This document shows positions 4,490-18,809 of a stretch of DNA of 42,977 nucleotides, piece by piece. Made by a program: the position numbers and the translations under genes. Origin of the DNA: Geminocystis sp. GBBB08 (GTDB lineage: Bacteria > Cyanobacteriota > Cyanobacteriia > Cyanobacteriales > Cyanobacteriaceae); NCBI RefSeq assembly GCF_016743215.1, contig NZ_VRZC01000012.1, positions 1 through 42,977 on the forward strand, in the 5' to 3' direction. The notes beneath the pieces are model-generated. The model made no database searches and was not told the DNA's origin. It saw nothing but the letters and a program-made list of their open reading frames with translations. Numbering within the stretch: position 1 is the stretch's first letter; each line of letters begins with the position of its first letter.

Positions 4490-4587
4490 AAGTAAGTAAG
4501 CAAAATTAATCTATGCCCTTTGTTTTTCTTAAATCTATGATAACAAGAGGTTTAAACCCCCCTCCTATATACAATTAATTTTGCTTA
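4490..4587. repeat. MITE-like palindromic element, copy A
   Basis: About 97 bp with a perfect 13-bp terminal inverted repeat (AAGCAAAATTAAT at 4498-4510 against ATTAATTTTGCTT at 4574-4586) and an internal palindromic GGTTTAAACC. A second copy in reverse orientation lies at 18996-19115 and shares an exact 21-nt end (4564-4584 here). The right end abuts the stop codon of the 436-residue gene. There is no coding capacity, so any movement would need a transposase from elsewhere. Confidence 0.65.
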
Positions 4588-4588
4588 G

Positions 4589-5899
4589 CTAAATCTTGGC
4601 ATAAATTCGGCGAAGAAAAGACATATCTAAATTGCCGAAATTGACACTAAAAGCGACATTGACTTTTTCTAAACTTCTGACTAACCATGCTGCACCATCT
4701 TTGGTAAAAGATTCATAGTGATTAAATAAAATCGAAAATCTTTTTTCTAAATATGGTTTCACTTTACTACAGGCTAAGGTTAATTTTAATAATAAGCCAA
4801 TGGTTTTAGTCGTTCCCATATTACTAATCATATCCATAAAGACTAAATGACTAGGATTTTGAGGGCTATCAACAATTAAATAGTTAAATAATTGACTATA
4901 GGTACGCATTTTTAAAAATTCATCGGGTTTTTTATAGTTATATTTGGGATACATTTCTTGTAATTTGGCATATAACCTTTTGTTAAAACTTTGTTTACCA
5001 TATTTTCCGTCGATAGATTGCACTACATACTCATATAAATCATCTTTGAATAATTGATAATTGCGCACATCATTAGTATGGGTTAAAAAACTACGGGATA
5101 AGTCTTGATAAGAATGACCATTTTCTACTGTACCAACATAATGTCTTAAACTTTTTCCTAAATCTCGATCGCTTAATAGAGTAGGATTATCTATAGGTCG
5201 AATTATGCGATCGCCATTTAATTCTTCCATTTTTTGTCGTCCGTTTTGTGCTACTCTGATTTGATAGGTTACGAATTTAGAGAGCTTAGACTCAAATTGT
5301 TTTTCTAATTCTGTTTTAACTTTAGAAACGGTTTGTTGTTGTTCTGTACTACTATCAGCACCTAAAAGACAATGATCATAAAGATAAGGATAGCGAGTAA
5401 TTAAATTACCTACTTTTTCTTCTTTTTTAGGGCTAGTTTTTTTCTGTTGAGTCTGAGTTAGAATCGTGACTAGCCGTTGGAGTTGTTTGTAGTAATCTGA
5501 ATGTAAAAATTCTCTTACTAATTGACTCATACGATTAGCATAAGACTTGTTATAACTTCTATTCATTCCTGAAGGAATTAAATCAAATAATTGTACTAAC
5601 TCAACTACATAAGCCTGAGTTTTTGAGCTTAGTTGCCATCGGTTAACTAAAATATGACAACAACGATTTAAAATTGGGGGAAATATTTCGGAAGCATCAT
5701 GATTAGCTATAATTTTAGCTAATACTTTTATCACTTTAGGATTATCATAATTTCTAGCCTGAATAAATAAATACCGAAATCTATCTAACACTTGCTCTGG
5801 TGACTGGGTTTTAACACATTCTAGCAAGTGATCATAAACAAACTGTTCATAGGCAGTAATGTCATGGTTATGATGTTCTGATAGAGAGGGACTATTCAC
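4589..5899 (-). CDS. Conserved-looking hypothetical protein, 436 aa
   Basis: A soluble, helix-rich protein with no signal peptide or membrane segment and no motif I can assign. Residues ~25-240 contain many short amphipathic helices, with a Lys-rich low-complexity stretch near 150-165. The C-terminal ~150 residues (PDEFLKMRTYSQLFNYLIV..., then LEKRFSILFNHYES) look compactly folded. The start is GTG (5897-5899); the ATG at 5907-5909 is out of frame. It diverges from murF across 157 bp. The gene ends exactly where MITE copy A begins. Coding is supported by length and normal composition; the function is unknown. Confidence 0.6.
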   Translation of the reverse strand: MNSPSLSEHHNHDITAYEQFVYDHLLECVKTQSPEQVLDRFRYLFIQARNYDNPKVIKVLAKIIANHDASEIFPPILNRCCHILVNRWQLSSKTQAYVVELVQLFDLIPSGMNRSYNKSYANRMSQLVREFLHSDYYKQLQRLVTILTQTQQKKTSPKKEEKVGNLITRYPYLYDHCLLGADSSTEQQQTVSKVKTELEKQFESKLSKFVTYQIRVAQNGRQKMEELNGDRIIRPIDNPTLLSDRDLGKSLRHYVGTVENGHSYQDLSRSFLTHTNDVRNYQLFKDDLYEYVVQSIDGKYGKQSFNKRLYAKLQEMYPKYNYKKPDEFLKMRTYSQLFNYLIVDSPQNPSHLVFMDMISNMGTTKTIGLLLKLTLACSKVKPYLEKRFSILFNHYESFTKDGAAWLVRSLEKVNVAFSVNFGNLDMSFLRRIYAKI

Positions 5900-16850: not shown

Positions 16851-18809
16851 ATGGTAGCTACATTTAACGGAAGTAACCAAAGAATGCCTCTTACTCCTAT
16901 TTTTAATCCGGGAGGTGATGATCGCATTGAGAATCGGACGATCTGGTTCGGAAATACGACAAACTTAATGCAACTCAATGATGTTCGCTATTCATGGGCC
17001 ATCGGATTGTATCAGCAAATGAGAGAAAATTTTTGGATTAACTAGGTAGTCCAGTTTAAATCCCTTGAAAACGGTGAAACTCTTTTTAATAGACAATACC
17101 GTGCCAAGCTGTTACAAATGACAGAAGGTGTAGAGACTAAAACTGATTCTAATTTAAAGCTACCAACGTGTAGTTAAAAAAAATGAAACTCACAAAAGAA
17201 ACTAGAAATCTTATTCTAGCAATGGCTATTGGTGACGGTAATATTAACAATGGTTGTCTTTTTATAGTTCATTGTGAAAAACAAAAGCAATATTTGGATT
17301 GGAAACATGAACTAATCAAAAATATTAGTGGGAAAATTTCTCGCTTTATAAATAATGGCTATGTTGCTTATAGATTTAATACAAAAAGATTAACTTTTCT
17401 TAAGCAAATAAAACCATATTTGTATAAGCAGGAAAAAATAACTCCAAAAATTCTGAATAGAATTGGAGTAATTGGATTGGCAATTTGGTATATGGATGAT
17501 GGTTCTTTGATTAAAAAAAAAAGAAATGGAAAAATCCATGCCTATGAGTTGGTTTTATCTACTTACTTTAATTCAGAAGAAAAAGCTAATGAAATAATTG
17601 ATTGGTTCAAAACCAAGCTAAATATAAATTTCACTGTTAAAAGGAATAAAGGTAAATTTAGTATTCGTTGTGGTACTTCAGAAAGTCGAAAATTTATCCA
17701 ACTTATCAAGCCATATGTTGAAAAAGTTGGATGTTTTGATTATAAAATTGATATTAATTTAGAATCAGGCTGATTAAATATCAGTAGAGTAGGCAGTAAG
17801 CGATGGACTGTCGAAGCGGGGGACTCCTTTATACCAGTAAAGGATGATGATATAGTCCGATCCATAAGGTGACTTATGGCAGCTTGAACAAAGCGAGTTA
17901 GGAGTAGCGATCTTAACTGAACAGAAATGACCTCAAAAACTAGATATAACACAAGATGTAACTGATTATTGGAATTTAACCAATGATGAGCGTCGTGCCT
18001 TTGAAGGAATTTTATCTTATTTAACCTTTTTAGACTCCGTTCAAACTTGCAATATTCCTCACTTAAAAAGTGCCATTACTGCCCCTGAAATTAGTCTTTG
18101 TATGGCGGAACAAATATCTCAGGAGGGGATGCACAATCACGCTTATCAATATATGATTGAGACGATTATTCCTAGTGATAAAAGAGACAAAGTTTATGAT
18201 TTTTGGCGGACTGATAAAGTTTTATCTGCTAGATGTGAATTTATTGCTGGTTTCTATCAAAAATATATTGATAATCCCACCAAAGAAAATTATTTTATTG
18301 CCCTTTTAAGTGATTATTTATTAGAAGGTTTATACTTTTATAATGGCTTTATTTATTTTTATAATTTAGCTGCTAGAATGTTAATGCCGGGTTCTGCTGA
18401 TATATTTAAAATGATTAATCGTGATGAATTAAGTCATGTGAGATTATATCAAAAATTAATTCCTGAAGCGATGCAAACTTTTGATTATTCTTTAGAATAT
18501 ATTTATGAAATGTTTAATACTGCTGTAGAGCATGAATGTAAATGGACAAATCATATTGTCGGCAATAACATCTTAGGTATCACTGAATCTAGCACTGAGC
18601 GTTATACTAAATACCTTGCTAATACTCGTTTACGGGCGATCGGTTTAGATCCTCTTTATACAGGTGCCCAGTATAGCAAAAGTCCTTACACTCATCTCGA
18701 AAAATTTTCTGATACCAAGAAAGAAGGTAATACTAAAGCCAATTTTTTTGAAGCCAGTGTCACCAGTTATATGATGTCGTCGGGAGTTTCTGGATGGGAT
18801 GAAATTTAG
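16851..18809 (+). CDS. nrdB: Class I ribonucleotide reductase small subunit (R2), split by a group I intron
   Basis: Exon 1 is 16851-17038 and exon 2 is 17930-18809. Joined, they give 355 residues reading FWI-PQKLD across the junction without interruption. The protein supplies the tyrosyl radical for deoxyribonucleotide synthesis. All diiron ligands are present: D98 (FLDSVQ), E128 and H131 (EGMH), E195 (LLEGLYF), E229 and H232 (DELSH). The radical tyrosine is Y135 in HNHAY. Continuing from exon 1 into the intron gives a stop two codons later, so splicing is needed for a full-length product. ATG 16851 is preferred over the upstream in-frame TTG at 16818 because MVATFNG looks like the conserved N-terminus. 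The large subunit is not in the window. Confidence 0.93.
17039..17929 (+). ncRNA. Group I self-splicing intron in nrdB
   Basis: 891 bp. The 5' exon ends in U and pairs as UUGGAU with an internal guide GUCCAG at 17049-17054, giving the P1 helix with the required U-G wobble at the splice site. The intron ends in G (17929). AGGU at 17044-17047 can pair with the first four bases of exon 2 (ACCU), forming P10. Core elements: AGAGACUA at 17132-17139 with GACUA (17135-17139) pairing to UAGUC (17853-17857) as P7; a perfect P8-like hairpin CCUUUA/UAAAGG (17826-17843); and a 7-bp P9-like hairpin closed by a GUGA tetraloop (17862-17879). A LAGLIDADG endonuclease ORF lies between the two P7 strands. The helices were matched by eye and the subgroup was not assigned. 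Confidence 0.88.
17183..17773 (+). CDS. Intron-encoded LAGLIDADG homing endonuclease
   Basis: 196 residues with two LAGLIDADG-type motifs: LILAMAIGDG (about 10-19, catalytic D18) and LAIWYMDDG (about 99-107). Two motifs in one chain suggest a monomeric enzyme that cuts an intronless nrdB allele at the insertion site and so spreads the intron. The protein is basic, as expected for DNA binding. It is free-standing inside the intron, not fused to exon 1, and no strong Shine-Dalgarno precedes its ATG. The ORF is complete with both catalytic acidic residues, so it may still be active. Some enzymes of this family also act as maturases for their intron. Confidence 0.88.
   Translation: MKLTKETRNLILAMAIGDGNINNGCLFIVHCEKQKQYLDWKHELIKNISGKISRFINNGYVAYRFNTKRLTFLKQIKPYLYKQEKITPKILNRIGVIGLAIWYMDDGSLIKKKRNGKIHAYELVLSTYFNSEEKANEIIDWFKTKLNINFTVKRNKGKFSIRCGTSESRKFIQLIKPYVEKVGCFDYKIDINLESG

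Follow-up and report, generated by a model that had tools for sequence, protein, structure and literature searches.

The sole gene found for the R2 subunit of ribonucleotide reductase in Geminocystis sp. GBBB08, nrdB, is interrupted at codon 63 by what is very probably a mobile group I intron of the IA type, which splices and homes, in which a LAGLIDADG endonuclease gene replaced an HNH gene, and whose lineage is shared by many cyanobacteria of the order and at least one phage. The gene lies in a stretch of 42,977 nucleotides, called here the window. Its parts, in window positions, are as follows.

16851–17038, forward strand: nrdB exon 1, codons 1–62 and two bases of codon 63 (joined translation; tblastn against other NrdB)
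17930–18809, forward strand: nrdB exon 2, remainder of codon 63 through the stop (joined translation; tblastn against other NrdB)
17039–17929, forward strand: group I intron of 891 nt, beginning after the exon U and ending with G (split RF00028 match; 14-sequence alignment with covariation)
17033–17054, forward strand: P1, exon UUGGAU (17033–17038) with guide GUCCAG (17049–17054), U.G at the splice site (covariation)
17040–17045, forward strand: in-frame stop (AAC TAG) close to the intron start (translation)
17044–17047, forward strand: P10 5' strand AGGU, partner of ACCU in exon 2 at 17930–17933 (89% of cells paired)
Within 17061–17129, forward strand: P3 5' strand (17061–17067) and P4 (17071–17076/17097–17102) (hand-built helices, covariation)
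Within 17061–17129, forward strand: shrunken P5 (17081–17083/17091–17093) and P6/P6a (17103–17129) (hand-built helices, covariation)
17133–17138, forward strand: P7 5' strand (unchanged across 14 relatives)
17143–17768, forward strand: P7.1-like closing stem, CTGATTCTAATTTAA with TTAATTTAGAATCAG, 14 of 15 positions complementary (inverted repeat, duplex)
17183–17773, forward strand: gene for an I-SceI-like LAGLIDADG homing endonuclease of 196 aa (PF03161, phrog_11023, fold match)
Within 17792–17858, forward strand: P7.2 (17792–17797/17807–17812) and P3 3' strand (17817–17823) (hand-built helices, covariation)
Within 17792–17858, forward strand: P8 (17825–17844) and P7 3' strand (17854–17858) (hand-built helices, covariation)
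17862–17918, forward strand: P9 with a GUGA tetraloop, P9.1 and P9.2 (hand-built helices, covariation)

The coding sequence is split after 188 nucleotides, within a codon (AT|A), and joining the exons in frame yields 355 amino acids followed by a stop. The joined protein reaches 343 bits against the NCBIfam R2 equivalog (cut-off 310), while its residues 10–347 align with solved R2 chains (E = 1e-81). D98, E128, H131, E195, E229 and H232, together with the radical tyrosine, Tyr135, are all there, as assigned by motif spacing. Seven metal and radical residues restored by exon joining, a single gene and an NrdA partner mark the protein as a class Ia R2. The exons are 95% identical to those of congeners at the amino-acid level (tblastn). 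The coordinates given in the initial annotation for the exons and for an 891-bp insert at 17039–17929 match ours exactly, and its claim that the two halves restore a complete R2 of 355 residues, with iron ligands and radical tyrosine, is borne out by the joined translation, NCBIfam and the solved chains. The sigma factor encoded next to nrdB exceeds the cut-offs of both SigD and Sig70-cyanoRpoD, which marks the host as cyanobacterial.

How much the cell depends on this gene can be read from the genome, a draft in 325 contigs with an estimated completeness of 99.9%. A second intact nrdB, named in the initial annotation as evidence that would count against the intron reading, was looked for there and not found: the genome holds one PF00268 (R2) gene, the split nrdB itself. 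NrdA is encoded once, on contig C271, with an N-terminal region resembling an ATP cone. A search of the genome with the class II model found no class II reductase, its sole result being a weak cross-match to the NrdA gene. With one PF00268 gene, one large subunit and no class II enzyme found, split nrdB is probably essential for the cell and, as it is the sole R2 found for this photosynthetic organism, DNA synthesis should need splicing.

The group I fold of the insert, comprising P1, P3 to P9.2 and P10, is confirmed. An Rfam search of the whole window returned no RF00028 match at the gathering score (50 bits), which is a database threshold and not a biological defining feature of group I introns. 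A focused search recovered the model in two parts, 17068–17141 (21.1 bits, from P4 to the P7 5' strand) and 17653–17879 (33.7 bits, as far as P9), split by the endonuclease ORF; seven sister introns at codon 63 (L069, L070, L071, L073, L074, L075 and L084) do reach the gathering score. The covariance-model check proposed with the initial annotation thus places parts of RF00028 to either side of the ORF, each below gathering, and this split match, together with the covariation described below, upholds its description of 891 bp with group I features.

Covariation was scored on the window intron and 13 cyanobacterial introns at codon 63, with large loops removed, a sequence-only alignment and helices assigned by hand. 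The window intron forms 71 of 71 pairs in all core helices, including the P3–P7 pseudoknot, P4, P6 and P8. Over the 14 sequences 97.5% of cells are paired, a percentage partly expected because the structure was derived from the same sequences, so that more weight attaches to double changes: 25 pairs differ at both positions, and double-change cells number 90, against 26 in shuffles (none of 500 shuffles as high). Pairing falls to 35–43% when partners are slid. Covariation is seen in P3, P4, P6a and P8, and in three pairs of P7.2; P7 is invariant. Even P1 covaries with the exon, an A-U pair becoming G-C in three relatives (exon A to G, guide U to C). At the boundaries, U17038 pairs with G17049 in P1, as a U.G that is kept in all 14 sequences, and G17929 ends the intron. 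Reading through from exon 1 gives W-I-N-stop, and the 13 codon-63 introns tested all stop within a few codons. Members of subgroup IA have extra helices, P7.1 and P7.2, between the P7 5' strand and the P3 3' strand; here P7.2 is supported by covariation and a P7.1-like stem by the inverted repeat.

The ORF carried by the intron lies between the two P7 strands, in the loop of the 15-base stem whose 3' strand overlaps its final codons. It matches LAGLIDADG_2 (PF03161, E = 8.5e-25) and phrog_11023 (E = 4e-23), and has two motifs in one chain, GDG (17–19) and MDDG (104–107), both invariant in a 26-sequence alignment. The AlphaFold model of the 196-residue protein (pLDDT 94.8) has as its best solved matches I-SceI (Z 18.5) and I-WcaI (Z 18.1), far above all others. 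These share the same single-chain, two-motif fold over 183–187 residues and are matched in sequence by phmmer, but they are about 22–24% identical to the window enzyme. The latter is encoded within the nrdB intron of a bacterium, whereas the homing target of I-SceI is mitochondrial rRNA. Sequence and model together support an I-SceI-like LAGLIDADG homing endonuclease, predicted to cleave DNA, and the domain match, invariant motifs and fold bear out the two-motif LAGLIDADG ORF noted in the initial annotation.

The intron is not an isolated case. Among 291 genomes searched in the order – a sample of that one order – NrdB was found in 137, at least 17 of which, the window's included, have the codon-63 intron; carriers are related, so that these counts are not independent events. 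A further 16 nrdB genes of cyanobacteria, and one of a phage, have inserts with identical boundaries. This recurrence, together with covariation above the shuffled and slid controls, confirms that the insert is not due to chance. Within the genus of the window, the intron is present in G133 whereas codon 63 is empty in G083, G117 and G172. The cores are 73–87% identical to that of the window, G133 being the closest of the 13 compared (87%). Nearly all carriers have A as the opening base of exon 2 (TGGAT|A or TGGGT|A; L258 is the one exception), whereas just 2 of the 41 cyanobacterial sites scored that lack the intron do. The base takes part in P10, so that the bias would reflect either selection for that helix or co-conversion. 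The exact core pattern, sought outside the order, matched only members of the order, a weak negative given a strict pattern and a thin sample.

Where other codon-63 introns encode an endonuclease, it is an HNH protein placed in the P5 loop (phrog_2255, E = 3e-30); several have no ORF, and the copy of the congener G133 keeps a broken HNH remnant. The HNH-bearing introns, in other cyanobacteria and in a phage, share site and boundaries with the window intron and differ in having HNH in P5, not LAGLIDADG after P7. In the window intron the P5 loop measures 8 nt, and an insert of 644 nt follows P7. Because it combines this shrunken P5 with a virus-type LAGLIDADG gene elsewhere, while its relatives have HNH in P5, the endonuclease was probably swapped within one intron lineage. 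The simplest history is that this lineage lost an HNH gene and gained a LAGLIDADG gene, an order of events that we infer from present states in 17 genomes.

As for the source of the new gene, the protein of a codon-227 nrdB intron in G190 is 45% identical to the window endonuclease, and otherwise the closest sampled relatives are viral: 80 IMG/VR loci, with up to 44% identity (viral relatives in the 26-sequence alignment: 34–45%). Several of the viral genes are housed in group I introns, and there too the gene follows the P7 5' strand at the equivalent point. NrdB was not matched near any of the 80 viral loci, so these introns sit in other genes. A maximum-likelihood tree groups the window endonuclease with three viral proteins (98/95), its exact sister being unsure, as its branch is long (0.51), that of its neighbour L112 longer, and the tree tool warns on long branches. 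The tree gives moderate support for an origin in a virus-associated family. Two other sources were considered and rejected: chromosomal cyanobacterial LAGLIDADG genes, which form a separate clade, and the G190 codon-227 intron as direct donor, whose gene nests in a different viral clade (100/100). No plasmid relatives of the window endonuclease gene were found.

A direct connection to phages comes from the HNH-bearing sister of this intron, and concerns that sister, not the LAGLIDADG-bearing window copy. The codon-63 core pattern matched one viral contig, L264 (IMGVR_UViG_3300016263_001390), with this feature:

6275–8000 of L264, reverse strand: nrdB with the codon-63 intron and an HNH gene (core pattern search)

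There the genes beside nrdB match PHROGs for head decoration, virion structure and tail fibres. Over 798 nt the intron shares 97.6% identity with its counterpart in the cyanobacterium G261, against only 73.8% for exon 2, a discrepancy that points to recent movement of the intron between a cyanobacterium and a phage, the simplest direction being from the former to the latter. Some 60 phage contigs have related NrdB and, apart from L264, all those reaching codon 63 are uninterrupted there. L264 is unlikely to be a chimera, since its exon 2 reaches 88.8% identity with sibling phages and its neighbouring virion genes are common to about 40 of them. A near-identical intron in L264 and G261, and its absence from dozens of related phages, name a specific candidate vector lineage. 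Around this contig lies a large uncultured phage lineage (L270–L328) with cyanobacterial-type NrdB, mostly 71–80% identical to the window protein; among the isolated phage records found, none exceeds 45% identity to NrdB of L264 itself. In another phage nrdB, L327 (IMGVR_UViG_3300034094_000170, 4490–4744), a group I intron occurs at codon 227 (96.2 bits), about 70–75% identical to cyanobacterial introns at that codon.

The following course of events would account for these features. Guanosine would attack after U17038, aided by P1; exon 1 would then attack after G17929, exon 2 being held in register by P10, and the R2 message would be restored. In unspliced RNA, the early in-frame stop would halt translation ahead of the intron core. 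The I-SceI-like endonuclease would cut intronless nrdB alleles, into which the intron would be copied. The usual HNH gene of P5 would have gone, with a virus-associated LAGLIDADG gene now filling the P7.1 loop. Splicing in vivo, DNA cleavage and homing of the window intron are what we infer from this architecture.

Other explanations must be weighed against this mobile, splicing intron. That the insert is degenerate and does not splice, nrdB being a pseudogene and dNTPs being made in another way, would fit with RF00028 scores below gathering and with a genome in 325 draft contigs. It is nevertheless highly improbable: the core helices are all intact, the exons are undamaged and close to those of congeners, the endonuclease ORF is open with invariant catalytic motifs, and the genome shows neither another nrdB nor a class II enzyme that could take over. 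The LAGLIDADG protein might instead, or in addition, be a maturase, a splicing cofactor, as some members of the family are, with bI3 and the bifunctional I-AniI among the structural matches. This we hold to be quite improbable, as I-SceI stands well above the bI3 maturase (Z 10.9), both acidic motifs of the catalytic type are invariant and sister introns with near-identical cores have no LAGLIDADG protein.

A different history, rather than a different function, would be replacement of the whole intron: the ancestral HNH-type intron lost, then a different one, bearing LAGLIDADG, inserted at the same site. A donor of similar core does exist, since the phage introns L086 and L092 have a GGTGTAGAGACT core and related LAGLIDADG genes after P7. 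Yet the closest core is that of G133, with its HNH remnant, and the site-specific P1 guide and P10 are both kept, a double match that would be surprising in an independent intron; replacement is accordingly improbable. Exchange of the endonuclease within a resident intron remains our preferred account. We add, as a rather doubtful extension of it, that the codon-63 intron might be a parasite of both cyanobacteria and phages, re-armed by a viral LAGLIDADG gene, whose occupancy of the site protects in competition between phage and host or among phages: with the endonuclease target disrupted by the insertion, an intron-bearing host nrdB, the sole R2 gene of the cell, would be shielded from cutting by phage-borne endonucleases.

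Among phages, group I introns in genes of ribonucleotide reductase are a familiar finding, and there are reports of them from Bacillus and from cyanobacteria (PMC3984707, PMC1995217, PMC3653736). In T4 nrdB, with I-TevIII, and in Twort nrdE, a group IA intron likewise carries a homing endonuclease in a class I gene. T4 nrdB is, like the window gene, that of the small subunit, but its intron encodes an HNH and not a LAGLIDADG enzyme, and both the T4 and Twort introns are phage-borne while that of the window is on a bacterial chromosome. The T4 nrdB intron was rejected as an ortholog by site, since T4 exon 1 is unbroken past codon 63, to about codon 172. The RIR intron of Nostoc punctiforme is likewise of group I and lies in the ribonucleotide reductase gene of a cyanobacterium (Meng 2007, cited in PMC1995217 and PMC3984707), and carries, by the title of that work, an insertion-sequence element. 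Cyanobacterial cases are filed there under nrdE or RIR, not nrdB (PMC1995217, PMC3984707). Endonucleases of phrog_11023, the PHROG family of the window enzyme, are found in introns of phage genes other than nrdB; a published survey places one in an intron of the DNA polymerase gene of a Bastillevirinae phage (PMC11878797).

What is already known, then, is the presence of group I introns in cyanobacterial ribonucleotide reductase genes; what seems to be new is the site, for which we found no description in the literature (not in itself proof of novelty), and the endonuclease variant. To call the intron unusual, as the initial annotation did, was therefore an overstatement, given this published record and at least 17 carriers among 137 genomes; the probable endonuclease exchange and the phage connection are points beyond it. 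A 2014 review found little evidence for interspecies horizontal movement of bacterial group I introns, and suggested phages as vectors (PMC3984707). The window copy, as a likely exchange of endonuclease class within one intron lineage at one site, lends itself to tests of how introns become re-armed.

More generally, nrdB is an intron hotspot in the order, with about nine sites and up to four introns per gene. Insertions occur in about 40 genomes, near codons 44, 63, 74, 79, 110, 134, 177, 203 and 227; those at 63, 134, 203 and 227 are assigned by Rfam to group I and those at 44, 74 and 177 to group II, while those at 79 and 110 carry no Rfam class assignment here. G126 and G190 have four introns each. 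Group I and group II introns are mixed in L082 (G126), L075 (G190), L084 (G105), L081 and L083, the group I members with HNH, GIY-YIG or LAGLIDADG ORFs and the group II members with reverse transcriptase ORFs. Elsewhere in the genome of the window, two weak RF00028 matches were noted on contigs C110 (18916–19277, L002, 20.2 bits) and C136 (4145–4355, L003, 16.6 bits); a search for tRNA genes at the two loci found none. Finally, nrdB of G239 (L261) gave overlapping tblastn parts (12–206 against 185–319), which looks like a frameshift or rearrangement and not an intron.
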